Below the pieces are notes generated by a model, which worked only from the letters and a program-made list of their open reading frames with translations, had not been told where the DNA came from and did no database searches. A DNA stretch of 51,523 nt from IMG/VR virus record IMGVR_UViG_3300045135_002159, positions 1 through 51,523 of that record, one strand, 5' to 3'. Of this stretch, positions 19,137 to 47,800 are shown one piece after another (the first letter of the stretch is position 1; the number at the start of each line of letters is the position of its first letter). Source of the DNA: a virus. A program made the position numbers and the translations under genes.

Positions 19137-19145
19137 AACGACTCC

Positions 19146-26527: not shown

Positions 26528-27444
26528 TATTGTGGATCTCCAAACGGATTACTTTCACTGAAGTCTAAGAATCCTAAGTCTGTTTGAGTTGTGTCAAAGA
26601 AATCGTTCTTTTCGTTTTCTGCTAATTGATTGTTCTCGGTAACGGCTGTCACAGAGGCTACTGAATATCTAGCAAGAGGAATTGATCCATCTGAGTCTTG
26701 GTCAGTTGTACCAACAATTTTTCTACCAGTAACAAATGTGTGATAATTACCATCGTCTGCACCAGCATGGATAACGTGTAGGATCTTATCGGAATCTGAC
26801 CAACCAGAAACCTCACCAGACATAACCACTCCATCCGCAAGGGTCTGGTTTACGGTCTCGCCAACTATATAACCAAACGATGCACTATCAAGGGTTAATT
26901 GATATTCATATGCATATCTACGCTCGATATCATCTATTACATCTACACCGGTGTCAAGATCTTCACCACCGTATTCAAACAGTTCACAACGTAGTTTATA
27001 TGTGGGCAAGTTGCTCAGTTGGTAGAATGGTTGTTCGTGCTCTACGGCCATAATCTGGAACATAGAGTTTGATAACGGAAGATAGATTACATCACCTTCG
27101 AGTGGGCGAATACCCTGAATCTCATTATCATAACGAGAAACAGTTTGGTTCCAACGTCTACGGGATACGATAAATGTTGCTTGGTCACGAATCTCTACAC
27201 CGAACTTAGTAAACAGATCACCTTCGCCGTCAAAGCCTTCGGTGTTCTCAATGTACATCTCTACTTTATAAGCAGAGTTAAATCTTGAAGGAACATCTTC
27301 ACCAAGAATCTTATCTTCGTTTACTAAATCTCTCGGCAGATAATAGACGTCTTGACCATAGATCTTAAGAGATTCTATGATAATATCTTCGTATAGGTTT
27401 TGTTCCGATTTAACCTTTTGGTTAAAGTAGTGATTCGTTGCCAT
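26527..27444 (-). CDS. 14: Neck protein gp14
   Basis: 305 residues (T4: 256). MATNHYFNQKVKSEQNLYEDIIIESLKIYG followed by DVYYLPRDLVN. Part of the neck that connects head and tail. Order gp13-gp14-gp15 as in T4, with a 1-nt overlap with gp15. The extra length is in the C-terminal half. Confidence 0.93.
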   Translation of the reverse strand: MATNHYFNQKVKSEQNLYEDIIIESLKIYGQDVYYLPRDLVNEDKILGEDVPSRFNSAYKVEMYIENTEGFDGEGDLFTKFGVEIRDQATFIVSRRRWNQTVSRYDNEIQGIRPLEGDVIYLPLSNSMFQIMAVEHEQPFYQLSNLPTYKLRCELFEYGGEDLDTGVDVIDDIERRYAYEYQLTLDSASFGYIVGETVNQTLADGVVMSGEVSGWSDSDKILHVIHAGADDGNYHTFVTGRKIVGTTDQDSDGSIPLARYSVASVTAVTENNQLAENEKNDFFDTTQTDLGFLDFSESNPFGDPQ

Positions 27445-28236: not shown

Positions 28237-30543
28237 TTAGGTGCTAATACCATTAATGGTTTTTAGTGCTGTACCAGCAGAATTGTAGATAGTTAACGAA
28301 GAACCTTGTGTAAGGTTACCATCATGCCACACCTTTCTCCATGTGTTCCATGATCCGCCTACCCCATCCCTGAAGTACAATTCACCCCATGTTGATGTAT
28401 GCGCTGTACCACTTAACTGCCAAGCTGCATAGTTAGTTCCGTTCCAACCTTTTGTTGTTAGTACGCCGGACCAACCCGCACCGCCCTGACTATAAGAGAA
28501 TATAGTCTTAGTAGAATTATCAAGCCAAGAGTCATTTGCGTTAGGCATATAGGTATTGGCCCCAGTAGTACCTGGCACTTGGGCAGAATATCTTACATCC
28601 CAAGACTTTATTCGAGTGACTTCACCATCAATATAACCAGTAACATCTAAATTACCCGAAATCGTGCCACCAGATGTCTTCAAAAGCGTACCGTCGTTGC
28701 CTTCATCCCAAACTTTATTGCCATTTCGTCTCAATTCAGAAGCGTTGTCGAAGTTCATAATAGCGTCGGTAGCGTCATCTATAGCGTAAAGGTGTACGTT
28801 GGTAGTTCCTCGGAAAAGCACGCCTTCACCTGGATCATTGATTTGAAGCTGATTAACCCCAGTAATGTTACCATTACTCATTGCAATGGTACTTGAACTA
28901 ATTGTGCCTGTTATATTAATATTACCAGTCCCGGTAATATCGTTAGAATTTAAATCAAGATTTCCGCCTAACTGTGGGGTAGTATCTTCTACAACATTAG
29001 AGATAGCACTAGCGCCGCCAGTTGACCAACTAAATGAGCCATCCCCATCAGAGATAAGGAATTGACCTGCTGTACCATTACCTGAGACATTTAATTCATT
29101 AGCACCAACTGCATTCGCCGCGATCTGAGCATTAATAGAGGTAGTGCCAGAACCACTTAAATCACCAGATAAAGTAATTGTCTGGTTTCCAGTTAAATAT
29201 GATCCTGCCGGTTGAATTCCTGCTTCAGCTAATGTATTATTAACCCAAGCGCTTCCATTCCATTTTAAAATTTCGCCAGACGTGTTACTTGTAATAGTAG
29301 TATTTGATAAACCGTCTAATGTGTGGTTATGAGAAGTCTGAGAGAAAGAACTTGCCTGAATACCATCCAATGTATCGGCATCAAGACCCGAACCTGAACC
29401 ATCTACTGTTTTTATAAGTGTTAAGATTTCAGAAGCTGTTTGATCGCCAGTTGCTCCTGCTTCGATACCATCCAATTTTGCGCCGTCAGCAGAAACATCA
29501 CGACCATCAAAGGTTTGTCCTGCTGCAAAAGTAATAGCACCGGTCATAGTACCACCAGCAAGTGGTAGTTTAGTACCAATACTGTTTGATACCGTAGTAG
29601 CAAAGTTAGGGTCGTCACCTAATGCTGCAGCAAGTTCATTAAGTGTATCCAGTGTACCAGGTGCTGCATCTACAAGATTGGATACCGCGGTGCTAACAAA
29701 TGCTGTCGTAGCAATCTGGGTTGTATTAGTCCCAGCTATAGCAGTTGGTGCTGCTGGTGTTCCTGTAAATGTTGGGCTAGCCAATGAAGCATAATAACTT
29801 CCATGCTGACCATCTAGTAAATCAGCATCGAGACCGGAAGTAGCACCATCGACAGTCTTAATAGCTGTAAGAATCTCACTTGCGGTTTGATCCGCAGTAG
29901 CGCCTGTCTCGATGCCTGCAAGCTTGGAAGCTTCAGTGGATGTATATCCCTGATAACCAGTTGAATATGTAATAGCCAAAGTACCACTGGATGTAATAGG
30001 TGAACCGGATATAGAAAACCCAGTTGGAACAGTAGCAGCAATGGAAGTCACCGTACCGGTATTTGTTGTATAGCCATTAGGATTTGAAGCTGCATAGTAA
30101 TATGACCCGTGCTGACCGTCTAATAAATCAGCATCAAGCCCGGAAGCAGCACCATCTACAGTTTTGATTGCAGTAAGGATTTCTGAAGCAGTCTGATCTG
30201 CTGTGGCTCCTGATTCAATACCTGCTAATTTAGAAGCTTCAGTCGACGTATATCCCTGATAACCTGCTGAATATGTGATAGCCAAAGTACCACTTGTAGT
30301 AATCGGGCTTCCTGATATTGCAAACCCAGTTGGAACAGTAGTTGCTACTGATGTAACTGTACCAGCATTTGTTGTATAACCAGCACCGTTTGTTAATTGG
30401 TTATTATTTGTTGGAATTGTCGGAGTATTAGTAAAGTTATTATAATCTAAGTAGTGCGAGGCAGCATGCCCGTCAAGTTTCACGGCACCAGTAGAATCTA
30501 TGTGATTATGAACTTGGGATAAGTCAAAGGATCTTGAACTCAT
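28237..30543 (-). CDS. Tail fibre/adhesin with internal repeats
   Basis: 768 residues, Gly/Ser/Thr-rich. A 102-residue repeat occurs twice (residues 58-159 and 160 to about 251), each with GYQGYTSTEASKLAGIE and the DADLLDGQHGSYY motif; TFTGTP, LDTLNELAAALGDDPNF and LPLAGGTMTGAI are phage tail-fibre typical. The C-terminal part has a pyocin-knob-like block (TWGELYFRDG, KVWHDGN). It ends with LTIYNSAGTALKTINGIST, a motif shared with two other proteins here. Likely a receptor-binding fibre. Confidence 0.85.
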   Translation of the reverse strand: MSSRSFDLSQVHNHIDSTGAVKLDGHAASHYLDYNNFTNTPTIPTNNNQLTNGAGYTTNAGTVTSVATTVPTGFAISGSPITTSGTLAITYSAGYQGYTSTEASKLAGIESGATADQTASEILTAIKTVDGAASGLDADLLDGQHGSYYYAASNPNGYTTNTGTVTSIAATVPTGFSISGSPITSSGTLAITYSTGYQGYTSTEASKLAGIETGATADQTASEILTAIKTVDGATSGLDADLLDGQHGSYYASLASPTFTGTPAAPTAIAGTNTTQIATTAFVSTAVSNLVDAAPGTLDTLNELAAALGDDPNFATTVSNSIGTKLPLAGGTMTGAITFAAGQTFDGRDVSADGAKLDGIEAGATGDQTASEILTLIKTVDGSGSGLDADTLDGIQASSFSQTSHNHTLDGLSNTTITSNTSGEILKWNGSAWVNNTLAEAGIQPAGSYLTGNQTITLSGDLSGSGTTSINAQIAANAVGANELNVSGNGTAGQFLISDGDGSFSWSTGGASAISNVVEDTTPQLGGNLDLNSNDITGTGNINITGTISSSTIAMSNGNITGVNQLQINDPGEGVLFRGTTNVHLYAIDDATDAIMNFDNASELRRNGNKVWDEGNDGTLLKTSGGTISGNLDVTGYIDGEVTRIKSWDVRYSAQVPGTTGANTYMPNANDSWLDNSTKTIFSYSQGGAGWSGVLTTKGWNGTNYAAWQLSGTAHTSTWGELYFRDGVGGSWNTWRKVWHDGNLTQGSSLTIYNSAGTALKTINGIST
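29791..30372 (-). repeat. Two direct repeats of about 306 bp within the fibre gene
   Basis: Codes for two 102-residue units (first unit 30067-30372, second 29791-30066 partly). The two copies are similar at DNA level (many silent differences), suggesting duplication with later drift. Confidence 0.7.
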
Positions 30544-30553
30544 TTTCTATACC

Positions 30554-31195
30554 TTATGTTGTCGGGCTGTACATAGTTTTCAGAGCCGTACCAGTAGAAT
30601 CGTAAATTGTTAAAGTCTGAACTGCTGCGAAATTTGAACTAGTAATTGATGCAATATTAAAAAGAGAAAACGCAATTACCTGAAGATCATCACCAGCTGA
30701 TGCGCCACTGTTTAAAACGACGCTAGTACCATTACTAGCAGTATAATCGTCACCCGGTCTTAACACAACACCATTCAATGAAACAATTATGGCATTTACT
30801 GTATATGCTAATACTTCTGCATTGTCATCTGAACCAGTAAATGTAGTTTGCCCACTGGTTGCAGTATATTCGTATGTTTTTAATGTTTGGGTCGTATCTT
30901 CGAAAGATAAAGTGCCAGAGCCATTTGTTTTTAATACTTGACCATTTGTTCCATCGGATGTTGGAAGCGTGAAGTTATTAACAAAGGTTGTTAGGTTTGC
31001 ATCGTACGCTTGAATAGTAGATCCAATCTTACTATCAATAAGATCCGAATCTACAAAATTCTTAATTACGTTTGAGGAATTTTTATAGTAAAGTCTACCA
31101 TCAGCATAGTTGAGGGCAACTTCGCCGTATTCTAGATCACCAGTTCCTGGTGCATTACTAGATACTGAGGATTTTTTAAGTAGGACTTTTGCCAT
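30554..31195 (-). CDS. Virion/fibre-associated protein
   Basis: 213 residues. Starts MAKVLLKKSSVSSNAPGTGD..YGEVALNYADGRLYYKN, a common N-terminal module of phage tail proteins. Middle: QTLKTYEYTATSGQTTFTG and ALAYTV. Ends TIYDSTGTALKTMYSPTT, nearly the same C-terminal motif as the fibre downstream. A late promoter (31260-31267) and a hairpin (31226-31253) precede it. Probable part of fibre or fibre connector. Confidence 0.75.
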   Translation of the reverse strand: MAKVLLKKSSVSSNAPGTGDLEYGEVALNYADGRLYYKNSSNVIKNFVDSDLIDSKIGSTIQAYDANLTTFVNNFTLPTSDGTNGQVLKTNGSGTLSFEDTTQTLKTYEYTATSGQTTFTGSDDNAEVLAYTVNAIIVSLNGVVLRPGDDYTASNGTSVVLNSGASAGDDLQVIAFSLFNIASITSSNFAAVQTLTIYDSTGTALKTMYSPTT

Positions 31196-33127: not shown

Positions 33128-33484
33128 TTACCTCGTGACCGACGGTGTTACTTCAAGATTTCCTTCCAATACTCTTTCAATAATAGTGTTTCCATCACTA
33201 TCATTATAAGAGATCTCTACATCATAAACCCAACGGCCAGGCTTCATAGCATCTGTCTGGGTGTTGGTTAATTCTAAAATAAGTTTTCCGAGGGGTCTAT
33301 TGACGGCCGTGAGGGTCGAAGTAAAGTTTACCGTATTATCACTATCTGCGTTATACGATCTTTTTGCCTTAGCTGCTGCACTGAAACCATTCAGATTTTT
33401 CACAGATCCATCTTTATCGAGTAGTTCTAACTCGATTGCTACATCAGCACCTTGGTCGATAGTGAATTCTTCGAATTGAGCCAT
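33128..33484 (-). CDS. Beta-sandwich virion protein (BppU-like in pattern)
   Basis: 118 residues with acidic start MAQFEEFTIDQGADVAIELEL, then LDKDGSVKNLNGFSAAAKAKRS and KLILELTNTQTDAMKPGRWVYDVEI, an Ig-like or baseplate upper-protein pattern. Common in marine T4-like fibre clusters. Own late promoter (33510-33517). Confidence 0.75.
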   Translation of the reverse strand: MAQFEEFTIDQGADVAIELELLDKDGSVKNLNGFSAAAKAKRSYNADSDNTVNFTSTLTAVNRPLGKLILELTNTQTDAMKPGRWVYDVEISYNDSDGNTIIERVLEGNLEVTPSVTR

Positions 33485-33509: not shown

Positions 33510-33517
33510 TATTTATA
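33510..33517 (-). promoter_or_regulatory. Late promoter (TATAAATA) of the 118-residue gene
   Basis: Exact TATAAATA on the minus strand, 26 nt before the ATG of the Ig-like protein, directly after the radical SAM island. Confidence 0.75.
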
Positions 33518-33524
33518 ATACTTT

Positions 33525-34616
33525 TCATTTGAAGATATCGACTAATTCAGGATGAATGTCAAAAATATCAAAGCCTCTAACTTTATTCATAGACTCGGTA
33601 TAAAGGAAAAATCCTTTTATTAACTGAGAACGTCTTGGTTCTGGTGTAGGTGTAATGTTCCAGAGATTCTTAGAGATGTTTTCAGTATTGTGTTCATATT
33701 GTTGCAACAATAGTTCCCTCATCTTATCTGTTTCGATCAGCGCTGGTGACAGATACACGGGTGATATCACTACATTATAGAAATTCTGCGTATAACCGTC
33801 GAACATCTCTTGGGTTTTTCTTAGATTAAAAATATTGTACAAAGAAATACACATATTAATGCTAACCCGTACGCCTAGTCTTTGTTGAAATTCTACGATG
33901 TTGAAATACGTATTCTCGAAATCACCCCCTCGGATCCAATCGTAGGTTTTTCCAATGCCATCCACGCTTGCGCCGATTATAAGATTTTTTAATCTTGAAA
34001 GAGGGTCAAACCATTCTTCAGGAATATGTTGGAAGTTACTTGTGATGATTACTTCGCACTCTGGGTTAGTCTCTGCAACCTTAGTTAAGATCTTTAGATT
34101 GTTCTTATCTGCAAACGGTTCACCGCCTTTAATATTCAAATAGCCGAGGGTAGGAATGACTCTTAAAATTTTCTCTATAGATTCATCAGACAGTGCAGAA
34201 GTTGAATGCTTAGCTTGTGACCAAGCTGGGAACTGACTTTCTATCTTTTTCCATTTGGTGCTAAAATAGCTACTACACATAGCACAGGTTTGGTTACAAA
34301 CATTACTCGTTGTAACTTCAAGATATCGGATATTCAGATCTTCACTTGGTGTATATCGATCGTAGTTGTAGATCTCATCCATCGCACCTTTCTTAACCGA
34401 TGCGGAACATCTCCAGCATTCTTTGATACCATCAATACCATCGCTTGACATTTTGTTTCGAAGCTGTTCATATTGCTTATCCCGAAAGAATTCGGTAAGA
34501 TCTTCAACGTCAGTGATTCTAGTATTAAACTGTCGTCTATCCCCTGTGTTACAGCACATTGTGATCAGGCCGCCTGGGTCGATAGTTAATCCAACAAAAG
34601 GTGCTTTACATAACAT
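33525..34616 (-). CDS. Radical SAM enzyme with N-terminal SPASM/twitch-like cluster
   Basis: 363 residues. Radical SAM core CxxxCxxC at Cys107, Cys111, Cys114 (SNVCNQTCAMC). An N-terminal Cys cluster (Cys3 in MLCKAPF, Cys21-Cys22, Cys67/Cys70) fits a twitch/SPASM auxiliary Fe-S site. GGEPF (about 160-165) is the SAM-binding motif. Substrate is not readable; SPASM enzymes often modify peptides or proteins, others sugars. No clear Shine-Dalgarno before the ATG at 34616; the gap upstream holds the plus-strand G-run promoter. Last gene of the island. Confidence 0.85.
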   Translation of the reverse strand: MLCKAPFVGLTIDPGGLITMCCNTGDRRQFNTRITDVEDLTEFFRDKQYEQLRNKMSSDGIDGIKECWRCSASVKKGAMDEIYNYDRYTPSEDLNIRYLEVTTSNVCNQTCAMCSSYFSTKWKKIESQFPAWSQAKHSTSALSDESIEKILRVIPTLGYLNIKGGEPFADKNNLKILTKVAETNPECEVIITSNFQHIPEEWFDPLSRLKNLIIGASVDGIGKTYDWIRGGDFENTYFNIVEFQQRLGVRVSINMCISLYNIFNLRKTQEMFDGYTQNFYNVVISPVYLSPALIETDKMRELLLQQYEHNTENISKNLWNITPTPEPRRSQLIKGFFLYTESMNKVRGFDIFDIHPELVDIFK

Positions 34617-34618
34617 TG

Positions 34619-34651
34619 GGGGGTTTACAATCCTATTTTTTACGGTATAAT
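34619..34651 (+). promoter_or_regulatory. Plus-strand promoter with G-run, no evident gene
   Basis: GGGGGG directly before TTTACA (34624-34629), 16-bp spacer, TATAAT (34646-34651), in the 44-bp gap between two minus-strand radical SAM genes. Same layout as the promoter at 10535. Transcription would go against the 34661-35719 gene; no plus-strand ORF with a ribosome site is seen, so an antisense RNA or a relic is possible. Confidence 0.6.
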
Positions 34652-34660
34652 ATAATAGGC

Positions 34661-35719
34661 TTATTCGGAAGGGGTTGATACATAACTATCCAAGAGCCAA
34701 TTCTTAATCTGGTTATGTACTAAGTGCTCTGCCACATGGAGGTTATTCTTTTTTCCTCTAATCGGATTACGTTTATATTTCTCTAGTCTCTCGGAAAGAC
34801 CTTCGTAGATCTCTTTCAGTTGATCACTTGGAAGATTCCAGATAGCCCATTCTTTCGGATATAGAATAGTGTTGTACCAGAGATTAACACCATGACGATC
34901 GGCAAACTCTACGAAGTCAATCATCTCAAACCAATTATTACGCATGGGGTTAACCATTACCGATAGTTCTTTTTCATCGCCACAATACTGCTTATAGATT
35001 TCAAAGTTCTTAAACACGTCGTCAAGGTTACCGTTAATACGTATTTCCGAATATCTTTGGTGATCGAGACTATCTATGCTGACATTAATATGTACGTTAT
35101 TCTGCGTAAGGATTTTCTTTGCTCTCTTATGATACACCGTACCGTTCGTAGCCATATTGATCTTTAAGTCAGGATTTACCTCTGCAACCATATCGCAGAT
35201 ATCGAGAACAATCTTCTGCGCAAATGGTTCGCCGCCGTTGAATCTCATTTCTTTTAAATGAGGAACAAACTCTTTTAGTTCTTCTACGAACTTATCGGTG
35301 TATACTTGAGGCAGTGGGGGTAAGCCTTCCCTATTCTTACGAATACCTGAGCTTAATTCACCGGAACACATTACACATTCCAGATTACACTGGTTGCTTA
35401 ATTCTAGTTCCATAAGGGAAGGATATTGATTTACCGGATATTCTTGATAAGCTTTAGCAAGTGGCCAGACTTCATTCTCGATCTCAGTCTCACACTCTTT
35501 ACACCTTCCGATAAACTGACACTTCTTAAGTGCATCACGATACATCTGAAACTTGTCGCCGAACCAGATATCCTTGATCGATCTTTCTTCTGACCACTGA
35601 TCACACATACCAGGCAGTTTCCAGCAAGGACTGACTTTACCTCTTACCGTAAAATACATATTGTTAAAAGGAGCATTACAGGGTGTGTCCACCCCATAAA
35701 GCGTTTTTACTTTATTCAT
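34661..35719 (-). CDS. Radical SAM enzyme with N-terminal SPASM/twitch-like cluster
   Basis: 352 residues. Core cluster Cys111, Cys115, Cys118 (SNQCNLECVMC); GGEPF motif around residue 162. N-terminal auxiliary cysteines: Cys14, Cys32, Cys39, then Cys67, Cys73, Cys76. Shares general layout with the two other complete enzymes in the island, so they are paralogs. The gene upstream overlaps by 8 nt. The reaction is unknown. Confidence 0.87.
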   Translation of the reverse strand: MNKVKTLYGVDTPCNAPFNNMYFTVRGKVSPCWKLPGMCDQWSEERSIKDIWFGDKFQMYRDALKKCQFIGRCKECETEIENEVWPLAKAYQEYPVNQYPSLMELELSNQCNLECVMCSGELSSGIRKNREGLPPLPQVYTDKFVEELKEFVPHLKEMRFNGGEPFAQKIVLDICDMVAEVNPDLKINMATNGTVYHKRAKKILTQNNVHINVSIDSLDHQRYSEIRINGNLDDVFKNFEIYKQYCGDEKELSVMVNPMRNNWFEMIDFVEFADRHGVNLWYNTILYPKEWAIWNLPSDQLKEIYEGLSERLEKYKRNPIRGKKNNLHVAEHLVHNQIKNWLLDSYVSTPSE

Positions 35720-36878
35720 TATACATTACCAATGCTGCCCATTCTGGAAATACCTCGGCGAAGCTTTCATTTCGAATCTTATCAAGGTGACGGATTTGAT
35801 CGTGGAATTTAGCGGTAAGATCCTCGTCATCACTTCTTATATATTTAATAATATTCTGATATTCTTTACGGTCCTTATACTTCTCTTCAATCTCGTCCTT
35901 GATCAAGGGATGTAGCTTTCTAGGAGAAAGATATGCTGGCTCATATACGAATCCATAACTCACAAATGGAGTTAGCTTCCTGAATTCTTCCATTGCTTCA
36001 TCAACATACCAAACATTGTAGTTATTAACGGTACAATAGATCTCGATCTTTACCCCAGGGAGTTTCTCTTTTGCTTTAATAATATTCTTTCTGATAAGCT
36101 CCCAGTTAGCACCGGATCTATGATAATACAACCGATCACCAATGTCATCCACACTGAATGCGACACTTACCCCTCGATATTGTTTTAGCATATTAACAAT
36201 ATCATCCCCCATAAACATACCATTTGTGTTAAAGTGTAGATCGATCTTTGATGCATAACCTAGCTCGATCATTAAACGAAGCATATCTTTATTCTCTTTA
36301 CCCATAAATGGTTCGCCGCCGGTAAAGGTAATCCTATCGATATGTGGCAACCACTTTAAAAAGATCTCTTCGTCATCTGTCTCCAGGAACTTATTCTTAT
36401 GCCAATAGTCGTCTGGTCTAAACTCGGGATTATGTTTTTCTTCCTCTTTTTGGATCAAGCTGGAAGTCATTGGACTACACATACGGCATTTTAGATTGCA
36501 GACATTAGACAGCTTCAGATCCAAGTAGAAGGGTGATTCGGATACGGTAGATGTAAAATCATATCTTTCAACTTGTTCTGGATAAAGATCGTACAGATAT
36601 GAATTCAATACTCTTCTGTAACTGAAAAGACCTGCTTTTTCTTCATTCCAGCATTGACGACACTCAATCGGCTTTTTACCGTCGATGAAAGCCTGTCTGA
36701 GTCTCTGCATCTCAGGACCATTCCAGGATTCGGCCAAACGCTGACTTCTCATATCAGTCAGTTTATAATCTGTTTGCAGATCGCTTTGTTCGTATTTACA
36801 ACAAGGCCGAATAGTTCCATCTATGTTCTGAGAGATAGAAGTCCATGGGGCTGTACAAAAGGTATTATTTTTATCCAT
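35712..36878 (-). CDS. Radical SAM enzyme with N-terminal SPASM/twitch-like cluster
   Basis: 388 residues from ATG 36878 (a GTG 9 nt earlier gives 391). Start TFCTAPWTSISQNIDGTIRP and CC is the twitch-domain signature (Cys8, Cys26-27, then Cys73/Cys76); core CxxxCxxC at Cys127, Cys131, Cys134 (SNVCNLKCRMC); GGEPF follows. Its ATG overlaps the stop of the SPASM fragment gene (ATGGATAA), and its end overlaps the 352-residue gene. Confidence 0.87.
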   Translation of the reverse strand: MDKNNTFCTAPWTSISQNIDGTIRPCCKYEQSDLQTDYKLTDMRSQRLAESWNGPEMQRLRQAFIDGKKPIECRQCWNEEKAGLFSYRRVLNSYLYDLYPEQVERYDFTSTVSESPFYLDLKLSNVCNLKCRMCSPMTSSLIQKEEEKHNPEFRPDDYWHKNKFLETDDEEIFLKWLPHIDRITFTGGEPFMGKENKDMLRLMIELGYASKIDLHFNTNGMFMGDDIVNMLKQYRGVSVAFSVDDIGDRLYYHRSGANWELIRKNIIKAKEKLPGVKIEIYCTVNNYNVWYVDEAMEEFRKLTPFVSYGFVYEPAYLSPRKLHPLIKDEIEEKYKDRKEYQNIIKYIRSDDEDLTAKFHDQIRHLDKIRNESFAEVFPEWAALVMYNE

Positions 36879-37203
36879 TTTTATCACACATCATTACGCA
36901 AATCCTATGCGGGTTATTACCAGTCCATGAGTTAGGTAAGGTTTTAGTAAACCACTCATGATTTAATATATCATCCAGAGAGTGATTATTGATATTTAGC
37001 TCATCTTCATGCTTCCAGTATTCTTGCATTACCGGATTGACGATATCATCAACACCACGCGCAATCAGATCAGGGTCGTTCCATTTGCCATTCTGTTTAA
37101 ATTTAAAACCTTGATTTGCAAGATAACAGCAAGGCCAAACCTGACCATCCGGGTTTACGAGAAACTTATTCTCTTTTGCCCATATACATTCTATACACGC
37201 CAT
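36871..37203 (-). CDS. SPASM-like fragment, C-terminal part of a split radical SAM enzyme
   Basis: 110 residues, no CxxxCxxC core. MACIECIWAKENKFLVNPDG, then VWPCCYLANQ with Cys25-Cys26, and Cys102/Cys106 near the end: the Cys pattern of an auxiliary Fe-S (SPASM) domain. Its ATG overlaps the TGA of the radical SAM core gene upstream (TGATG), so it is one nt out of frame. Most likely the second half of one enzyme, separated by a frameshift or made as two chains. Confidence 0.75.
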   Translation of the reverse strand: MACIECIWAKENKFLVNPDGQVWPCCYLANQGFKFKQNGKWNDPDLIARGVDDIVNPVMQEYWKHEDELNINNHSLDDILNHEWFTKTLPNSWTGNNPHRICVMMCDKNG

Positions 37204-38000
37204 CAGAAATTCCTATCCTTATGCGATTTTTCATTACTCGTATCTTTATTGTAGATCATTTGGTTGCCACGTTCTTCCCACCACTTATGATCTCTATGTG
37301 GCGCTGGAAGTACGAATCTCGGATCATCAATACCTAACGAGGTTTCTTCTAACTGAAACTGTTTACCGTCTTCATCAGTATATTCTTCAATAGGATCTTT
37401 GTTAAATCTATTTGATGGCTGTACAAGATGGTCAGTCATACCAAGTTCGTTGTAACACATATCCAATATATCTTCAATATAATCTTCATTATGCTTAAAT
37501 ACAATTACATGGGCAAATGCATTCCCACCCGCTGCAGTAAATGACTGAATATTTAATTTGAGTTTCTCGAAGTCTACCTTACGTCGATAGTGTGAATGCA
37601 TCTCTTGGTTAATACCTTCAACGTCGAAGATTACTTGCATTCGATCTCTACCGATTAATCCTAACTCCCACCAGAAGTCGTCGTCTCGGAATCCACCATT
37701 TGTATTCAATTGAATCCAACAATCACTATTATCGATAATATACTTACAGATCTCGAATATATCTTTGGTCATAATGGGATCCCCCCATGTACCACAGATC
37801 TCGAATCTTTCAATCATATTCATAACTTTAGGTGGATAAGCATTCTTGAATTGCTTAAGATCCCATCTGATCAATGGAAGCCAGCCAACCTTACCTAATC
37901 CGTTCGGATCTGTTCTATGACACTGTGGACAACCTGCATTACAATATGTACTAAGGTCAATCCAAGCAACTAGCTTTTCTTTTAAATCATAAATGCTCAT
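37203..38000 (-). CDS. Radical SAM core protein, SPASM part split off
   Basis: 265 residues. CxxxCxxC at Cys20, Cys24, Cys27 (STYCNAGCPQCHRTDPNGLG). EICGTWGDP takes the GGEP position. Lacks the C-terminal auxiliary cysteines, which are in the next ORF. The C-terminal tail (about 220-265) is polar and lacks an evident domain. Ends TGA overlapping the start of the SPASM fragment; start ATG at 38000 overlaps the glycosyltransferase gene by 4 nt. Confidence 0.82.
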   Translation of the reverse strand: MSIYDLKEKLVAWIDLSTYCNAGCPQCHRTDPNGLGKVGWLPLIRWDLKQFKNAYPPKVMNMIERFEICGTWGDPIMTKDIFEICKYIIDNSDCWIQLNTNGGFRDDDFWWELGLIGRDRMQVIFDVEGINQEMHSHYRRKVDFEKLKLNIQSFTAAGGNAFAHVIVFKHNEDYIEDILDMCYNELGMTDHLVQPSNRFNKDPIEEYTDEDGKQFQLEETSLGIDDPRFVLPAPHRDHKWWEERGNQMIYNKDTSNEKSHKDRNF

Positions 38001-38674
38001 GAGAAATTCTTATAGTTTTTCCATTCGTGAGGTTTATTCGTACTGCGGGTAAAGTGTACAATCTTTATATCTTCATGGAAGTCGTTACCGTCCCACAAAC
38101 GATTGCCCGTGATTTCGAAATATTTATCCTCGATATTTTTAGTGCTAGAACGGCTATCGCTGATCCATCGGGTAAACCAAGCATCTGGCATAAGCTTTAG
38201 ATCCATACCATACAAGCTATCTTGGACAAACATAAACTCACCATTTACTGGTCCAATAGTTAAACCAGCTTTGATATAATAGTTTGTATAGTATGGAATA
38301 TCACTCATAAATTTTTCGTAGATGTGCTTTGTTCTACTAGGCCAGAACTTATAGAAACCGCCGCTCATCTTAAATGGCGTACCGTTAAAGTTCCACCAGT
38401 ATGGAATAGAAACAAATTCGTTCTTTGCACATGGATAGTTAATTACTTCGTGGTAATCGTGAATAAGAAGCTTATCGATATCCATTACAATTACAGGTTC
38501 ATCGATATCCATATTGAATACCTGTAGCTTATTCCATTGAAGTGGAACCCACTTATGAAAAGGTTCACGAATCCAATGGACGTCGTGACCTTCTAACTTA
38601 CTATTGATATAATCTTCATATTCAGGACCGTACTTAGTTCCGATCCTTACACAGAATACTTTCAAAGGAACCAT
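37997..38674 (-). CDS. Glycosyltransferase-like protein
   Basis: 225 residues. A metal/sugar-nucleotide motif Asp65-Ile-Asp67 in VIVMDIDKLL; N-terminal KVFCVRIGTKYG and QWNKLQVF recur in the protein at 40129-40767, so these are paralogs. Small GT-A-like fold expected. Ending includes GNRLWDGNDFHEDIKIVHFT, a typical C-terminal His motif of such enzymes. Acceptor unknown; with neighbours it may decorate a virion or cell-surface glycan. Confidence 0.7.
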   Translation of the reverse strand: MVPLKVFCVRIGTKYGPEYEDYINSKLEGHDVHWIREPFHKWVPLQWNKLQVFNMDIDEPVIVMDIDKLLIHDYHEVINYPCAKNEFVSIPYWWNFNGTPFKMSGGFYKFWPSRTKHIYEKFMSDIPYYTNYYIKAGLTIGPVNGEFMFVQDSLYGMDLKLMPDAWFTRWISDSRSSTKNIEDKYFEITGNRLWDGNDFHEDIKIVHFTRSTNKPHEWKNYKNFS

Positions 38675-39534
38675 TCCATCTTTTTGTTGATACAGTGATA
38701 CATCTTTGCATTCTTATCGCATGCATTCCTATTTCTTTTTTTCTCGTCTACGATATAATGCCAATCGCCGTTTAAGTATTCAATGGCGATATCTTTTGAA
38801 TGGACCAAATAAGAAAATAAAGTTTCATTATCGTAACCAAATACACGGCGGATGTTATATGGATACATCGAGTCTTCATCTTTTTTAAGCTCAGTCATAA
38901 GATCTAGATTCTCTCTGAAGTTATCGAAGTAACCTAGATTTTTAACAACATCTGCAGATGCAACCATAATGCCGGTATTGAACACATCATTGTCAGGTTC
39001 GTGACCTTCTTCTAAAAGCATTGCATGTGCATTCCAATACTTCGTAGACGGATTACGAATACACGTATTATAATTCTTCGGGTCTACTTTCTTGCCCCAC
39101 TCAGCAAGGGCATTAGAATGCGCGCAACCAAACTTATTATTAATATCATGAGCTTCGAATATATCGTCAGTTGTATTTGGAATTACGTCAAAGTCGAGGT
39201 AACAAATAGCATCGTAGCTATCTGCTAACTTCCTCATTGTCCAATGCTTATAGAAGTTTACGATATCGTAATGGGAAACTTCCGGGTAATCAGACTCGAA
39301 CATCTCTACAAACTCTTGGTATTTTAAATCCCACTTATAGAGTTTGTAATCTGCACCAATTGCTTCTGCGTACTCTTTATGCCTTGCAACGATCGCATCT
39401 TGATTCTGTAACAATGCTATCTTAGTCTTAAGACTTTTATCAGTTTTAATCTGAACACCATTTTCAAACCAGCCAGGATTATCTAACTTATCATCTGGGA
39501 TGTTAACAAAAATGCTGTAGACTATCTTTTTCAT
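38662..39534 (-). CDS. Glycosyltransferase-like protein
   Basis: 290 residues. Asp114-Phe-Asp116 in ICYLDFDVIPN is a DxD motif; ARHKEYAEAIGADYKLYKWD matches the N-terminal part of capsular/galactosyl-type GT-A enzymes. Middle FGCAHSNALAEWGKK... and GIMVAS. Overlaps the genes on both sides by 13 and 4 nt. Substrate unknown. Confidence 0.75.
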   Translation of the reverse strand: MKKIVYSIFVNIPDDKLDNPGWFENGVQIKTDKSLKTKIALLQNQDAIVARHKEYAEAIGADYKLYKWDLKYQEFVEMFESDYPEVSHYDIVNFYKHWTMRKLADSYDAICYLDFDVIPNTTDDIFEAHDINNKFGCAHSNALAEWGKKVDPKNYNTCIRNPSTKYWNAHAMLLEEGHEPDNDVFNTGIMVASADVVKNLGYFDNFRENLDLMTELKKDEDSMYPYNIRRVFGYDNETLFSYLVHSKDIAIEYLNGDWHYIVDEKKRNRNACDKNAKMYHCINKKMEWFL

Positions 39535-40166
39535 TTTCCAATTACCATATGTCTATTAAAGTCGCCAAGATCAAGTGTTCCGGTATAAGCAATATATTCT
39601 AATCCCAGTGAATCGGCAAACGTCTTTGCACCAGGCCAACAATTAATATGTGCATCGAGTAGTGTGTAATCATTTGTTTGAAAACAGATCCAAGTATCAG
39701 CTGGTTTTCTTTTAATGATATTAACAAGATCTTCTTGTTCCATATGTTCGCAACTTGTGTTAATGATTGCTGTATATGGCGAGTAATCTATTTCACTATT
39801 TACATCTAATGTTTCGAACGCAATATCTTGATCGTAAAATAACTTATAGCCATAGTAATCACACATCGGATCCATATCACTTGAGGTAATATTCATACTA
39901 GGGTTTGGCCATAGCTTTCTAAGTTGATATGCCATCATACCATACCAACCACCAACAACTAGAATATTACCATCCTGGTGGTTATAGTGCTTATAGAATT
40001 CTTTAGCTAACCACTCTTTACCTTCCCAGTGGTTCTTATCTACGGAATGTACAATATCTTTAATACGATAGAGGTCGTCAACCCCATACATCGACTCATT
40101 ATAGATTTCTTCCGAAAGCTTAAGGGATCTATATAAGATCGTCGATTCCAACGTCAATCTCCTCAA
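39531..40166 (-). CDS. Methyltransferase-like protein (class I fold)
   Basis: Up to 211 residues. The N-terminal glycine-rich loop of a SAM-binding Rossmann fold is seen at VVGGWYGMMAYQL (about 70-82) followed by SSDMDP. The start is uncertain: the longest frame begins with TTG at 40166, a GAGGAG suits a TTG at about 40151, and the first ATG is at 40091. It overlaps the next glycosyltransferase by 38 nt. Substrate unknown; a sugar or small-molecule O/N-methylation is possible. Confidence 0.6.
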   Translation of the reverse strand: MRRLTLESTILYRSLKLSEEIYNESMYGVDDLYRIKDIVHSVDKNHWEGKEWLAKEFYKHYNHQDGNILVVGGWYGMMAYQLRKLWPNPSMNITSSDMDPMCDYYGYKLFYDQDIAFETLDVNSEIDYSPYTAIINTSCEHMEQEDLVNIIKRKPADTWICFQTNDYTLLDAHINCWPGAKTFADSLGLEYIAYTGTLDLGDFNRHMVIGK

Positions 40167-40767
40167 ATGTTAAAACGCAAGCCTCATAGTCTACTTCACG
40201 CTGGTATTTCCACGATTGGATATATTTCTTCTCGAAGACGAAATATTTTAAATCTTCATGTACGATGTACCGATCAATACCTACGTATTTACGCATAAAG
40301 TAATCACGGAATCCGCTGTTAAAATGATTCCATAATTCTTGCATATGAGGAAGAGAAGCATCCCACGTCATTACTGAACTATTAATGCGTACATCATAGT
40401 TAGCTAGTCGATCGTATACCTTTGCGTACTTCCAGTGTGAATGCACAAGAGTAAGCTGTTCCCAATCTCTTGGGTCTTCATGTATGAGGGGATCTTTTAG
40501 GATTTTTACATCAAGGTCGAAATAGTAAGTCTTGCCTTCTAATCCCATAGCAGGATCAAATAAACGTAACTTATTCCAAACACCTTTTAACGTAGGACGA
40601 CCAAGAGGAAGAATGATATTAACTTCTGGTATGATTCCCTCTGGGTCATCGGTGTAACAGAAGAACTTAAATTCTGCTTTTGTTAATCTTTTAATATCAT
40701 TATAAAGCTTGTTTACGAAGTCGGCACTATACTTAGTGCCAAACTTCACGCAAATCACATTATACAT
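40129..40767 (-). CDS. Glycosyltransferase-like protein
   Basis: 212 residues. MYNVICVKFGTKYSADFVNKL, VWNKLRLFDPAMG, then DxD Asp84-Leu-Asp86 (YYFDLDVKIL). Clear paralog of the 225-residue protein (shared CVxxGTKY and WNKLxxF). Later HEDLKYFVFEKKYIQSWKY. First enzyme gene of the island, starting at the stop of the 208-residue gene. Likely glycan-modifying; specificity unknown. Confidence 0.7.
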   Translation of the reverse strand: MYNVICVKFGTKYSADFVNKLYNDIKRLTKAEFKFFCYTDDPEGIIPEVNIILPLGRPTLKGVWNKLRLFDPAMGLEGKTYYFDLDVKILKDPLIHEDPRDWEQLTLVHSHWKYAKVYDRLANYDVRINSSVMTWDASLPHMQELWNHFNSGFRDYFMRKYVGIDRYIVHEDLKYFVFEKKYIQSWKYQREVDYEACVLTFEEIDVGIDDLI

Positions 40768-41393
40768 TAAGAAGCTCCTTTGGCCTCTCCGTAGAATTTA
40801 AGTAGTTCGAAAAGTGTTTTAGATTTACGGATCGAAAGCTTTAAAGCTTTATCTTTTGACTTACCAATTAGTGGATCTTCCAATATACCCACTTTAAAGT
40901 TAAACACGAAATCATTGTCTTCGTTTCTTTTAGTCAAGTAATTGAAAATGTCTTTCGGAGACATATCTTCAATTCCTAAAGTTCGATTGCTTAAAAATTC
41001 ACTCTGATATTTTGAAGCCAGATCACTTTTCATCGTGTCTTTATAATTATCTACTTCTTCATAGGCCTTTTTAGTTCTATCGTCTTGATATCTGTCAATC
41101 TCTTCATAGGCCTTTTTAATCTTTTCGGCTTCTAATTCCCAGAGTTCGTTTACTTTTTGGATAACAGCATCATTAAAAACTTTAGCGGCTAAATTAACTT
41201 CTTCCTGGGAGTTCTTTTCTATTTCTTCTAAAGTAATTTCTTTTAGAAGATCATTGAAGTCGTCAGAAGTAAAATCGACTTCCATTTGATATGGAACTAG
41301 TTTTCCGGTTTCTTCATACAAAATCTCGATGATCATGTTGTTTGGATAATCAAGAAACTTTGCCGTAACTACCTTATCACTAAAAATAGCCAT
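40767..41393 (-). CDS. Coiled-coil protein next to fibre genes
   Basis: 208 residues. N-terminal beta-rich part (MAIFSDKVVTAKFLDYPNNM) then a charged helical part with a 15-residue repeat (KKAYEEIDRYQDDRT / KKAYEEVDNYKDT, about residues 93-120). C-terminal KALKLSIRKSKTLFELLKFY. A structural or fibre-associated protein is likely; similar proteins lie beside fibre genes in marine T4-like phages. No enzyme motif. Confidence 0.65.
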   Translation of the reverse strand: MAIFSDKVVTAKFLDYPNNMIIEILYEETGKLVPYQMEVDFTSDDFNDLLKEITLEEIEKNSQEEVNLAAKVFNDAVIQKVNELWELEAEKIKKAYEEIDRYQDDRTKKAYEEVDNYKDTMKSDLASKYQSEFLSNRTLGIEDMSPKDIFNYLTKRNEDNDFVFNFKVGILEDPLIGKSKDKALKLSIRKSKTLFELLKFYGEAKGAS

Positions 41394-41420: not shown

Positions 41421-42353
41421 TTAAGTTTGAGTGATCCTCAGATAATATGTTGAGATCGTAGTAGGAGACGCATTATAGTCTGGGGTTTCCTGTGCACGAT
41501 AATCGTTGGTATTTACCTGGTAAGTTAGATACTTAGAACCAGTCAGACGAGTATCAAGCATGGCTGTACCACGGTTATTACCTGTGCCGTTAATACTATA
41601 ACGAATACGAGTTCCAGTTACAGCACTAGCAGCATGACGAATATTTGTTTGCAAAGCTGTTTGGAATGTCGCTTTTGCTATTTGACGAAGATTAGTTCCG
41701 CTTTTAAGATAACATATCGGTAATTCAAAAGCTGCCTCAGCTGCACCATTAACTCTATAAAGATAATAATTCGTAATTGTCGTAGGCTGGTCTCGTGTTT
41801 CCAGCAATCCTGCAGCGGTATAAGCAGCAGCATCTGCTCGGGTATCGGTATAAACTGGGGTTGCTGATACTCGTGTAGCTCCACTAACCGAAGTTGCAGA
41901 TGATATAAAGTATGTTCCAGCTTGTGCGGTAGTAGTCGAGCTAGTAGTCATTGTATCAATAGCTGGCTTAATGAAAGTATCTAGAAAGTCAGTTTGAGTC
42001 ATTTCTCTTAGGTCACTACCATCAAAATATAGCGGATAAGAATATGTAGCATCAGACCAATACGATGTAGATGCTGCAGTTTCATCAATCTTATCATAAG
42101 AAACGGATACGTTTGAAACGTTCTGTAATTCTGCTGTGGTAGCAAATCTGTCCACTCTTGTTTGTCCGGTACCAGCTTGTTGTCTAGTATCAGTCATACC
42201 AGTAAGACTTCCACCTGAAGCGACCACCGATAGAGTAACCGCCGGATTTGCAGCATATTGACGAATCGCTTCGGTCCGAAGATCAGCAATCTCACCCGAA
42301 GACATTTCTTTTAAATCACTACCAGCTAATTTTAAAGGTGTTCTAACTGCCAT
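41421..42353 (-). CDS. Virion protein with three internal repeats
   Basis: 310 residues. A short unit recurs three times: PLKLAGSDLKEMSSGEIADL, PLYFDGSDLREMTQTDFLDTF and PICYLKSGTNLRQIAKATFQ (about residues 5, 106 and 216). Beta/Thr-rich between. Probably a fibre or baseplate accessory with repeated domains. Adjacent to the 227-residue fibre gene with a 1-nt overlap. Confidence 0.7.
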   Translation of the reverse strand: MAVRTPLKLAGSDLKEMSSGEIADLRTEAIRQYAANPAVTLSVVASGGSLTGMTDTRQQAGTGQTRVDRFATTAELQNVSNVSVSYDKIDETAASTSYWSDATYSYPLYFDGSDLREMTQTDFLDTFIKPAIDTMTTSSTTTAQAGTYFISSATSVSGATRVSATPVYTDTRADAAAYTAAGLLETRDQPTTITNYYLYRVNGAAEAAFELPICYLKSGTNLRQIAKATFQTALQTNIRHAASAVTGTRIRYSINGTGNNRGTAMLDTRLTGSKYLTYQVNTNDYRAQETPDYNASPTTISTYYLRITQT

Positions 42354-43036
42354 TATAAACTCCCAGCAGCATAAAGCGTTCTTAAAGCTGTTCCTGCGCT
42401 ATCATATATTATAAATGTTTCTACTGATTTTAGTGCTACACTGCCGCTAGTGATAGCAATACCATTACCCGCACTAAAGTGTGCTCTTACTTCAGATGCA
42501 CTTGGACCTGTGTATGTAATAACACCTGAGGTTGAATTGTATGAAAGCGATCCATCACCACCAGCATCTGTTACAGAGATTTTACTACGAATCGTAGCAT
42601 CTGAAATACTAAATTGACCTGATGCATATGTTGTATTAGTACCGGCACTGAAATGTGCTCTAACTTCCGTTGCACTTGGGCCTGTATACGTAATAACACC
42701 GCTTGTAGAATTATATGTTAATGAACCGTCGCCGCCAGCATCTGTTACTGAGATATGAGCTCTTGCTTCAGTTGCTGAAGGACCGGTGTAAGTGATTACG
42801 CCAGTTGACGAATTATATGTTAATGAACCGTCGCCGCCAGCATCTGTTACAGAAATTTTACTTCTAAAATCGGTATCGCTATCAATTAGATTATAGATTG
42901 CAGTAAGGATATTGACAACATCACTCTCACCGGCAATATCTAAATCAGTTACCGAACCTACCCCAGCAGAAAGTTCATTAAATTTAGATACTAATTGAAC
43001 GAAGGTATCTGTTACATTAATTGTTACTTGCGCCAT
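42353..43036 (-). CDS. Fibre protein with three 34-residue repeats
   Basis: 227 residues. ISVTDAGGDGSLTYNS...GVITYTGPSATE(V/A)RAH occurs at 61-94, 95-128 and 153-186. This repeat is frequent in marine phage fibres. C-terminus FIIYDSAGTALRTLYAAGSL carries the motif shared with two other fibre proteins. Receptor contact or fibre shaft. Confidence 0.8.
   Translation of the reverse strand: MAQVTINVTDTFVQLVSKFNELSAGVGSVTDLDIAGESDVVNILTAIYNLIDSDTDFRSKISVTDAGGDGSLTYNSSTGVITYTGPSATEARAHISVTDAGGDGSLTYNSTSGVITYTGPSATEVRAHFSAGTNTTYASGQFSISDATIRSKISVTDAGGDGSLSYNSTSGVITYTGPSASEVRAHFSAGNGIAITSGSVALKSVETFIIYDSAGTALRTLYAAGSL
42479..42856 (-). repeat. Three repeats of 102 bp in the fibre gene
   Basis: Units of 34 codons (42755-42856, 42653-42754, 42479-42580), the first two adjacent and the third after a 24-residue spacer. 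Copies differ mostly at silent positions. Confidence 0.75.
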
Positions 43037-43037
43037 T

Positions 43038-43247
43038 TTAGCTCTTCTCTATTAGCTGCGTGAGGAGGCTCTTAATTTCACTCATATCATTTTCTAATTT
43101 ATCCAGCCTCGCCTTTTCTTTTAGCTTAGCTGCTCTTAAGATTTGCCTCTTTTCCTTTTCATCACTATTTATACTAATTATGGCGCCAGATACTTTATCA
43201 CGTACTAGATCTTTATGTCCTTCAACCGGAATATATCTATCACTCAT
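43038..43247 (-). CDS. Small coiled-coil virion protein
   Basis: 69 residues: beta N-terminal MSDRYIPVEGHKDLVRDKVSGAIISI, then helical KEKARLDKLENDMSEIKSLLTQLIEKS. Such short proteins precede fibre genes in marine T4-like clusters. An internal TATAAATA (43166-43173) could drive the genes downstream; its position inside a coding region makes it doubtful. Confidence 0.75.
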   Translation of the reverse strand: MSDRYIPVEGHKDLVRDKVSGAIISINSDEKEKRQILRAAKLKEKARLDKLENDMSEIKSLLTQLIEKS

Positions 43248-44851: not shown

Positions 44852-47800
44852 TTATACTTCCTTAACTTTAGAGGTTATTGATTTACCGATTGCTCTTGAA
44901 ATTGGGTGACCGATGATCATAAGAGCCTTACCAATCATATTTGACTTATATTCTTCAGGCTTCATGATATGTGCCATCTCTTGCGCCCATGCTTTTGCCA
45001 GCGGAGCTACAATGCTAAGAGCGATCTTAGATCCGATAGTGTTACCTTTTATATATTCAGCAACTGGTGTTGCCCATAGACGATAGCCATCACCAAGCTC
45101 TGGATCTTTTAGGTTAACCATTTGACCAAACTGGGAATCCAGATTGTAGATATCTTCTGGAAGCATACCCATTTCATATAGTGCAGTACAGATAACTTTA
45201 CCACCACCTTTGTTATGCACAAGCATACCATTAGCGATATAGGTACGAGCTTTACCCTCGAGGATGAAGTTATAAACCTGCTGGTTTGCCGCATCATGTT
45301 CTTCGATCGATTCAATAACAAAATGGCTTCCATCTGCTTTTACGATCTTATCACCAACTTTCAAGTTATCGATCATCAGTTTAGCCATTGAGCTGTTTTC
45401 TTCAATGGTCTTTTTGATATCAATAGCTTTCCAGCCTTCAGTTGTCATGAATGGGTGTTCAGCAGTAACGAATGCTTTACCACCATTGAAGCCATAGAGT
45501 TTACGAAGTCCTAACATAGGACGATCGAAGGCGAACACTTTACTTAGTTTACCATCTTGACCCATAAGTTCATCGCCGATCTGTACTTCTTCGATAACCT
45601 TAATTGAGCCATCTGCCATAGTAATTTCAGTGCCTGCTACGAAGCAAGATCCGTCACCACCTGTGTTACCGCAGCCGCCTGTCGATCCATTGCCATTGGC
45701 ACACTTATTGTGTACGAGAATGTTTTCGGCGTAGTAGGTGTTGTTGCCGTTAAGTAATAAGTTATAAAGCTGCGTATCTTCAGGTAATTCTACAACTTCG
45801 AATTTTTCAAGTTTTTCTGTACCGCTCGGCGTGATAAGCGTATGACCAATTGAAAGGTCTTGAATATCTTTCAATTCTTCCTTTACAATATCATCATAGG
45901 TATGCCATTCCCATTTCTTCAGTAGTTCAACGTTAATTGCTGCCCAGCCGCCTTCAATTTTAACCGGGTGTTCTTCTGACATAAATGGTTTTCTACCGTT
46001 GAAACCGTATACTTTTCTAAAGCCAAGTTTAGGTGTTTCAATACCGATAACCGTGTTACCGTGATACTCGCCACAGTCTTTACATTTACTACCCATAACA
46101 ATGTCACCAATCTCAATTTCAGATATTGGTTTTAATTTACCATCTGACATAGTGACCATTGTCTCTGCAGTAAAGCAGCTATATTCATATGAAGGCTGAG
46201 GTGGTAGGTCGGGGTGATCTCTTCCATTTACTGGGGTAGGGAGAATCTGCACAGGCTGAGTAATCACCGGGGCTGGGGTCGGCGGAGTAATATCAATTAG
46301 TGTTCTATTCATTACTTCTGGCGCAAGAGGTGTGGTTTCAGTAGCTGTCTGAACTACTCTCGTCGAAAGAATCTCATCCTGAAGTTCTCTTAAGATACCA
46401 GTGCTTTCAAAGGTTGCAGTGGCATATGATAGACCTGCAGTAACATCCATCACTGAAACGTCATTCAGCTTGAATTCAATTTTTCCGCTAGAGATTTTAA
46501 ACTGATCGTTATTAGGGATTAAGAAATAACCCGATACAGTTCCATCGCCATCAGTAACAATAGTAGTTTTTCCGCCAAGTTTTGCCGGGAATTCATAAGT
46601 TGTAGCAAATTCAGTACCAGCATCGAGATAAGGGGAATTTCTATCTAAAGTTCCGAAGAAATTAAACCCGCTTGGGCCACCCACCGTATTCACATAATCA
46701 TCAATTCTAATGTCATTTAAGAATGGGAAGTACTGGGTATTCGGTCTCAATCCAGTTGCTTTAAACGATACGAATTTGGATCTAGCATAAGGTATAGAAC
46801 TTTGATCTCTTACGAAAGTTCCTAAATTTTCTCTCCTAGTACCAACAGCAACAATTTTTTGAGTTTTTCTACTTCTTTTCTTATATGTTGTAACTGTTTT
46901 AGTATTTCCGGAAGTTGAAGATTTTTTATATGTATCACCATATACTTCTGATTCGGAAATAACATCACCGATTTTCGGGCCGAATGGCGAAGCTTCGTCT
47001 TCTGATAAAATACCGGACCAATTAGTGTTATGGCTGTTTGGATCTTTTTCCAAATCAGCATTAATGTATTCTTTGGTATTTGGAATAATCTTCTTAGGTA
47101 ATGTTTTAGTATCAATCCAGTTATCAGAAGATGGTGATAGTTTAATATCGCCACCGATTCTTTGAACCTCAAACGGATTAACTGTAACAGATCTTGAAGC
47201 AGTGGATTGTTGTTTATAAACAGTATTCTTGAACTTTTGGTATATGTTATCGCCTTTTCTGATAGTATCAGTAGAAAGGTCTGAATCGTATACTAATTCA
47301 ATGGTTTGTCTATTAACCAGCGGTCTAACTTCACCACGGATCATATCAACAGATGCTCTATAATCTGGTAAGCTCATATCAGAGAATGAGTGATCATTAA
47401 ATGGATCAGCAGTAATACCAGATTTGAATCTAGATAAACCATCACTGTCTAGGATGTCAACAGATTTCGCATCCACTTCTAATAATGTAAGTGAAGTTAA
47501 TTCCTCAAGATCGGTAAGTCTTTTATCAAGAACACCGATATCTCTCATTGTATAACGACGGTTGTCGATATACTGAATGCTATAATCGTCTTCATTTACC
47601 ATATATGGATACCAAGTCCATTTGGCAATTTCCATTACTTGACCGGTAGTTTCACCTGGTACTGAAGGATACACTGGTTCGGTAGAGGGATCTCCTAGGA
47701 AGTTACCCCACCAACCTTCTCTTGAAATAACTGTTCTACCTCTTAGACCAAGATAGAATTCTTCATCATAATTAATTGGCTCGTTGTTTCTCGGAAGAGG

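Follow-up and report, generated by a model that had tools for sequence, protein, structure and literature searches.

Why does a marine bacteriophage carry several radical S-adenosylmethionine (SAM) enzyme genes in a row, together with glycosyltransferase genes and a methyltransferase gene, in the midst of its tail fibre genes? The question is raised by the IMG/VR virus record IMGVR_UViG_3300045135_002159, the whole stretch of which (51,523 nucleotides) we call the window, and by the island of enzyme genes at positions 33525-40767. The initial annotation, made from the letters of this DNA alone, had proposed a dedicated pathway that modifies a fibre, capsid or host envelope component by radical chemistry and sugars. 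Our results lean towards sugars on the fibre, as a methyltransferase and a glycosyltransferase accompany one fibre-region protein, F310, in 31 of 34 independent contigs, whereas the capsid gained no support. In the best explanation, in which we place moderate confidence, late-expressed enzymes build and tailor a glycan on a virion fibre.

Every gene of the island lies where it had first been placed (Table 1), and the initial description of three complete radical SAM enzymes with SPASM/twitch-like clusters, a split radical SAM/SPASM pair, three glycosyltransferase-like proteins (GTa, GTb and GTc) and a methyltransferase-like protein (MT) holds. Reading 5' to 3' on the minus strand, F227 is followed by F310-U208-GTa-MT-GTb-GTc-rSAM4-SPASM-rSAM3-rSAM2-rSAM1-V118. 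The ends mostly overlap, as had been noticed: all junctions from U208 through rSAM2 do so by 1 to 38 nucleotides and F227 and F310 by 1 nucleotide, while gaps separate F310 from U208 (27 nucleotides) and rSAM2 from rSAM1 (44 nucleotides). Fibre or fibre-assembly genes flank the island on both sides, again as described, with F227 and F310 before it and V118, F527, F213 and F768 after it.

Are the fibre and enzyme genes expressed together? The T4-type late promoter motif TATAAATA occurs ten times on the minus strand and twice on the plus strand, with about two to three occurrences expected on each. None lies between 43173 and 33517, and by this layout F227, F310 and the enzymes belong to a single putative late unit, although the site at 43173 lies within U69. 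The occurrence at 33517-33510 starts the next unit, in agreement with the promoter first proposed there. A scan for sigma-70-like promoters gave no more hits than shuffled sequences.

Association of the enzymes with F310

Searches with rSAM4, rSAM2 and MT retrieved many islands, in which the order from F310 to V118 given above is recurrent. To control for the bias of such searches, we also searched by F310 alone and obtained 53 non-redundant loci, 34 of which extend at least 6 kb beyond F310. A glycosyltransferase gene adjoins in 33 of these 34 loci; MT and a glycosyltransferase are found together in 31, and both with a radical SAM gene in 27. The rSAM4 type is present in 25 loci, and rSAM3, rSAM2 and rSAM1 in 9, 5 and 2, respectively. 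Order and strand change from locus to locus while gene content stays. GTa, MT and a glycosyltransferase are thus the core and the radical SAM genes frequent but variable additions, since nearly all F310 islands hold GTa and MT and rSAM1-3 are each confined to a few; the same counts led us to reject the radical SAM genes as a fixed core. The initial annotation had looked to conserved co-occurrence with a fibre protein as a check, and the contigs located via F310 provide it. It had also considered that the genes might be scattered individually among relatives or be known nucleotide-modification enzymes; the counts speak against the former, and the island holds none of the latter.

Recurrence in so many independent contigs, in the same or a rearranged order, together with nonsynonymous divergence (dN) far below synonymous divergence (dS), is more than chance: among close relatives dN is 0.06-0.16 against a dS of 1-5 for GTc, MT, GTa and rSAM4, the high dS values being saturated. 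The comparison confirms the run as real, conserved and functional-looking, within a known variable island. Once the baseplate gene gp8 is removed as a covariate, F310 divergence tracks that of GTb (partial r 0.33, p 0.001) and GTa (partial r 0.21, p 0.01). Moreover, a second set of contigs carries a compact version of the unit, made of an open reading frame (ORF) of about 62 amino acids, F310, a U208-like gene, a radical SAM gene, GTa, MT and a GTb of 570 amino acids. Within 10 kb of this unit we found no T4 baseplate genes, and these contigs, which are fragments, show no T4-like terminase, gp23 or sheath; two of them have a gp8-like gene tens of kilobases from the unit.

The protein encoded directly before F310 ranges from 60 to 1128 amino acids in 101 distinct cases, and its C-terminus is nearly always a shared stretch of about 19 residues, here called the tail, for example LIIYNSAGTALKTLYGAGS. 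A Lys is invariant in this tail, and a Gly, a Ser and a Thr are near-invariant, in the 74 sequences that align without gaps. The tail was found in 144 of 153 loci with F310 versus 6 of 160 without it (redundant contigs included), and reversed sequences used as a control gave 7 hits versus 160. In the window it ends three different fibre-like proteins, F227 before the island and F213 and F768 after it; apart from such sharing within one genome, it is rare among sequenced phages. When 50,697 phage records of INPHARED were searched with tblastn, the tail, F310, MT and GTb were all detected in Pelagibacter phage Mosig only. We considered a tail generic to marine T4-like phages and rejected it, as this search found the tail only in Mosig. 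A nucleotide search of INPHARED gave no match.

F310 itself was modelled with AlphaFold2 at a predicted local distance difference test (pLDDT) score of 94.5, and three repeats are apparent by eye. A fold search against PDB and BFVD returned no meaningful match, and the model possibly represents a new fold.

Some loci met during these searches deserve mention. On one phage contig with the F310 module, L109, a gene resembling tryptophan halogenases (PHROG 2928) lies nearby, at 19109-20308. Another locus, L376, is a 'Candidatus Pelagibacter' metagenome-assembled genome (MAG) contig, PAFP01000047, that resembles a Mosig-type phage island binned with its host. A separate recurrent island without F310 (L141 11962-14502, L137 6132-6974 and similar loci) combines an rSAM2-like gene and roughly three N-twitch radical SAM genes with a DUF6071 protein of about 280 amino acids and a B12-binding radical SAM protein of about 850 amino acids.

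Chemistry of the encoded enzymes

The Pfam Radical_SAM profile (PF04055) exceeds its cut-off in rSAM1-4 and the CX3CX2C motif is intact in all four, which assigns them to the radical SAM superfamily. SPASM exceeds its cut-off in rSAM1, rSAM2, rSAM3 and the stand-alone subunit, while rSAM4 matches Radical_SAM only; no further match to either profile was found outside the island in the whole 51.5-kb record. The SPASM match is N-terminal in rSAM1, rSAM2 and rSAM3, where an auxiliary-cluster domain with cysteines spaced C-x17-C-x40-46-CxxC precedes the core. Two of these proteins belong to the N-terminal twitch radical SAM family NF033640 of NCBIfam (curated cut-off 170 bits), with 200.2 bits for rSAM1 and 331.9 bits for rSAM3; rSAM2 scores 132.6 bits over positions 11-322, and is alike in architecture without being a member. 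A local frameshift behind the rSAM4/SPASM split was rejected because many relatives keep the split; the fused form is found in L013. Searching IMG/VR with the single rSAM3 sequence gave no matches, and alignment queries were needed.

What could these enzymes act upon? The twitch of rSAM2 matches the BtrN auxiliary domain (E 6e-9), and BtrN is matched more weakly by rSAM3 and rSAM1; BtrN is an aminocyclitol dehydrogenase, which oxidises an aminocyclitol. For rSAM4, the sole solved structure matched is that of cytosylglucuronate decarboxylase (E 5e-4). These structure matches weakly hint at carbohydrate substrates.

The DxD motifs of GTa, GTb and GTc are conserved in relatives. Pfam has no match for any of the three, and GTa and GTc have weak matches to a glycosyltransferase PHROG. 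GTb was modelled with AlphaFold2 at a pLDDT of 94.6, and among the GT-A enzymes that its model matches are LARGE1, XXYLT1, LgtC and domain 1 of PBCV-1 A064R; the predicted fold and the DFD motif make GTb a GT-A (GT8-like) enzyme, while GTa and GTc are assigned by DxD only. MT has a weak class I methyltransferase profile match, to 3dtn alone (E 7e-4).

The genes that accompany these enzymes elsewhere are, by their predicted functions, those of glycan chemistry. A carbamoyltransferase (38 loci), a PF05118 hydroxylase, a DegT aminotransferase, a desaturase and an NAD epimerase (often adjoining F310) recur in the islands, and wider relatives also hold a UDP-sugar dehydrogenase. In a Gammaproteobacteria MAG, MT and radical SAM genes are neighbours of genes for a carbamoyltransferase, for an epimerase and for a fused radical SAM/oxidoreductase. 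Relatives of MT in Ensifer and Mesorhizobium were set aside; they stand in another context, from which the remaining island genes are absent.

Candidate targets of the pathway

How would such a pathway act on a fibre? Late in infection, one transcript would provide F227, its partner F310, U208 and the enzymes. The GT-A enzymes GTa, GTb and GTc would add a short glycan, in the cytoplasm, to a fibre acceptor (an F227-type tail or F310), MT would cap or methylate it, and the radical SAM enzymes would tailor the sugar by C-H chemistry, through oxidation, epimerisation or decarboxylation in the manner of BtrN or BlsE. The resulting glycan may change adsorption or shield the fibre. Swapping of radical SAM, carbamoyltransferase, aminotransferase and epimerase genes within the hypervariable site would then give each phage a distinct fibre glycan, and we lean to a variable tailoring role for the radical SAM enzymes within the glycan pathway rather than to their being its fixed core. 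More tentatively, the fibre scaffold (tail protein and F310) could form a transferable unit with its own glycan pathway and a radical SAM-tailored sugar; this is possible, if somewhat doubtful.

The linkage to F310, the second genomic context, the tail, the co-divergence with GTb and GTa, the late unit, the few membrane helices, the glycan genes, the matches of rSAM2 and rSAM4 to BtrN and cytosylglucuronate decarboxylase and the precedent of PBCV-1 lean towards the fibre. Several observations weigh on the other side. The divergence of F310 versus MT and rSAM4 is not significant beyond the backbone, and in T4-like contigs the variable island is bounded by F310, whose association is partly positional as a result. 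Among the radical SAM enzymes, similarity to carbohydrate enzymes is weak, and rSAM1-3 also match MoaA, viperin and SkfB. Lipo-oligosaccharide is the substrate of soluble GT8-type enzymes such as LgtC, and the PF05118 hydroxylase and desaturase genes of related islands could be compatible with lipid A chemistry.

Could the host envelope then be the target? The enzymes would alter lipo-oligosaccharide or another surface glycan, and so block superinfection or adsorption to debris. The fold of GTb resembles LgtC among others, the PF05118 hydroxylases are of the LpxO family, and these enzyme families are found in bacteria too, in clusters that include a GT2; moreover, glycosyltransferases of the pelagimyophage host recognition cluster have been interpreted as envelope (O-chain) modifiers (PMC7029224). 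However, the islands are nearly free of membrane proteins: helices are predicted in 19 of 918 island ORFs, whereas the same test flags each of P22 gtrA, gtrB and gtrC, and no flippase, polymerase or undecaprenyl-phosphate transferase was seen. Nor does the window have the make-up of a gtrABC-type O-antigen conversion system, as none of its island proteins has a predicted membrane helix. This scarcity argues against lipid-carrier pathways, not against soluble LgtC-like core transferases, and therefore leaves room for an envelope target. Transcription of the enzymes late, together with a fibre gene, as judged from promoter layout and gene overlap, and the pairing of the set with F310 in a second genomic context are further points against the envelope. 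On balance we regard fibre glycosylation, at about an even chance, as the most likely outcome; envelope remodelling comes next, as an alternative to be taken seriously though rather less likely.

A further possibility is that radical SAM chemistry is aimed directly at amino acid side chains in the fibre protein, installing crosslinks or epimers in the tail as in ribosomally synthesised and post-translationally modified peptides (RiPPs), with glycosylation in parallel or following. Peptides are frequent substrates of SPASM/twitch enzymes, the tail is short, C-terminal and highly conserved, with the invariant and near-invariant residues noted above, and some minimal tail proteins of about 62 amino acids resemble precursor peptides. 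No precursor-sized ORF lies inside the island, however, where the overlapping genes leave no room for one, and the bacterial context of the enzymes is sugar chemistry. Furthermore, the tail is missing from 138 radical SAM loci without F310 or MT and a glycosyltransferase, so that radical SAM genes by themselves do not go with it. We hold this explanation to be improbable.

Auxiliary metabolism, in which the island would supply a small molecule, a cofactor or a modified nucleotide that serves takeover of the host, independently of the virion, is the least probable: a boost to metabolism was the reading given to the radical SAM arrays of Campylobacter phages (PMC2853527), the 12 such genes of a T4-like marine genome were discussed under Fe-S metabolism (PMC5332604) and a QueC-like protein lies near some relatives, but the tight linkage to a fibre gene, the late promoter layout and an island with three glycosyltransferases and no nucleotide-modification enzymes all stand against it.

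Radical SAM and glycosyltransferase genes of marine phages have long been known and unexplained, and are usually filed under auxiliary metabolism or O-antigen modification. The F310 linkage offers a specific, testable alternative, that of phages chemically decorating their own fibres. Should this be so, enzymes besides fibre sequence would have a part in host range and phage recognition, the virion would bear a radical SAM-tailored glycan, and enzyme swapping would diversify the fibre surface of abundant marine phages. Mosig, cultured on Pelagibacter HTCC1062, carries the key parts, with the F310 homologue QOI69061 and the tail-bearing protein QOI69062.

Genomic site and known systems

The island is flanked by a VrlC-like gene (44852-49954; DUF4815, placed as Mosig VrlC), which a Gp8-like gene precedes, and by gp14 (26527-27444; PF11649 T4 neck, E 1.7e-37). 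These flanks and the variable fibre and glycosyltransferase content identify it, at the level of predicted genes, as the host recognition cluster of pelagimyophages, which likewise occupies the VrlC-gp14 site with fibre genes and glycosyltransferases. Glycosyltransferases and radical SAM cassettes have been noted in that cluster, the cassettes as a difference between two genomes; the passages of that account considered here describe no fixed F310-GTa-MT-GTb unit, shared tail or split pair (PMC7029224). The presence of radical SAM and glycosyltransferase genes at this site is thus already known, while the tight link to a fibre unit and its tail is new: in the literature, we found no description of how tightly the glycosyltransferase, methyltransferase and radical SAM set is tied to one fibre unit.

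The island of Pelagibacter phage Mosig EXVC030M (MT647606, 55-74 kb) is like that of the window in having F310, a tail-bearing protein before it, homologues of MT and GTb, and MoaA-like radical SAM genes. It differs in its hydroxylases, carbamoyltransferase, nitroreductases and aminotransferases, in place of which the window has an array of N-twitch radical SAM genes. At 55-72 kb of Mosig (locus L236), about 20 tailoring enzyme genes stand in a row beside the F310 homologue, including hydroxylases, nitroreductases, a desaturase, MoaA-like radical SAM genes and a carbamoyltransferase.

Campylobacter phages CP220 and CPt10 have a swappable module of five radical SAM genes, accompanied in CP220 by two nucleotide-diphospho-sugar transferase genes and located near baseplate genes (PMC2853527). 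Unlike in the window, an amidinotransferase is present and no F310 was found in these phages; in a tblastn comparison covering two radical SAM proteins, rSAM4 had a distant relative (30%). The T4-like marine genome mentioned above carries its 12 radical SAM genes (PMC5332604). Closer to glycan synthesis, the A064R/A061L pathway of PBCV-1 is virus-encoded and consists of largely soluble glycosyltransferases and a methyltransferase; A064R, two glycosyltransferases and a methyltransferase in one, builds the capsid glycan, and its domain 1 matches the fold of GTb (PMC9614988). In mycobacteriophages, phage-encoded glycans are found at C-termini of virion proteins (Freeman 2023, as cited in PMC12619734). 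PBCV-1 differs from the window in being a eukaryotic virus with an N-glycan on its major capsid protein, and the mycobacteriophages in their hosts and in glycosylation of capsid and tail tube. We know of no radical SAM enzymes in the PBCV-1 capsid glycan pathway or in mycobacteriophage virion glycosylation.

Table 1. Coordinates of the fibre genes, enzyme genes and late promoters in the window
Feature	Coordinates	Strand	Description
F227	42353..43036	-	Short fibre-like protein; tail fibre PHROG match; conserved C-terminal tail VETFIIYDSAGTALRTLYAAGSL
F310	41421..42353	-	Conserved fibre-region protein; anchor of the module
U208	40767..41393	-	Coiled-coil-like; conserved neighbour of F310
GTa	40129..40767	-	Glycosyltransferase; DLD motif; weak match to PHROG 1962 (glycosyltransferase)
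MT	39531..40166	-	Class I methyltransferase-like; GGWYG, D.DP, NTSCEHM
GTb	38662..39534	-	GT-A fold glycosyltransferase; DFD motif
GTc	37997..38674	-	Glycosyltransferase-like; DID motif
rSAM4	37203..38000	-	Radical SAM core (CNAGCPQC); without a SPASM of its own
Stand-alone SPASM subunit	36871..37203	-	1-nucleotide overlap with rSAM4; fused to rSAM4 in L013
rSAM3	35712..36887	-	N-terminal twitch and radical SAM; NF033640 member
rSAM2	34661..35719	-	N-terminal twitch and radical SAM; below NF033640 cut-off
rSAM1	33525..34616	-	N-terminal twitch and radical SAM; NF033640 member
V118	33128..33484	-	Borders the island downstream; resembles the 'L-shaped tail fiber protein assembly' PHROG
F213	30554..31195	-	Fibre-like protein; C-terminal tail as in F227
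F768	28237..30543	-	Fibre-like protein; C-terminal tail as in F227
Late promoter TATAAATA	43166..43173	-	T4-type consensus; 137 nucleotides before F227, inside U69
Late promoter TATAAATA	33510..33517	-	Starts the next unit (V118)

Two neighbouring genes have features of their own. The VrlC-like protein (minus strand, 1700 amino acids) has two tandem Hint/intein-like domains near its C-terminus, at residues ~1257-1420 and ~1437-1581, each ending with LVHNK, and it is possible that this baseplate protein processes itself through them. An HNH-endonuclease-like gene (24766-25281, minus strand) lies just before the large terminase gene and overlaps the start of the terminase frame, with a late promoter motif 26 nucleotides upstream.

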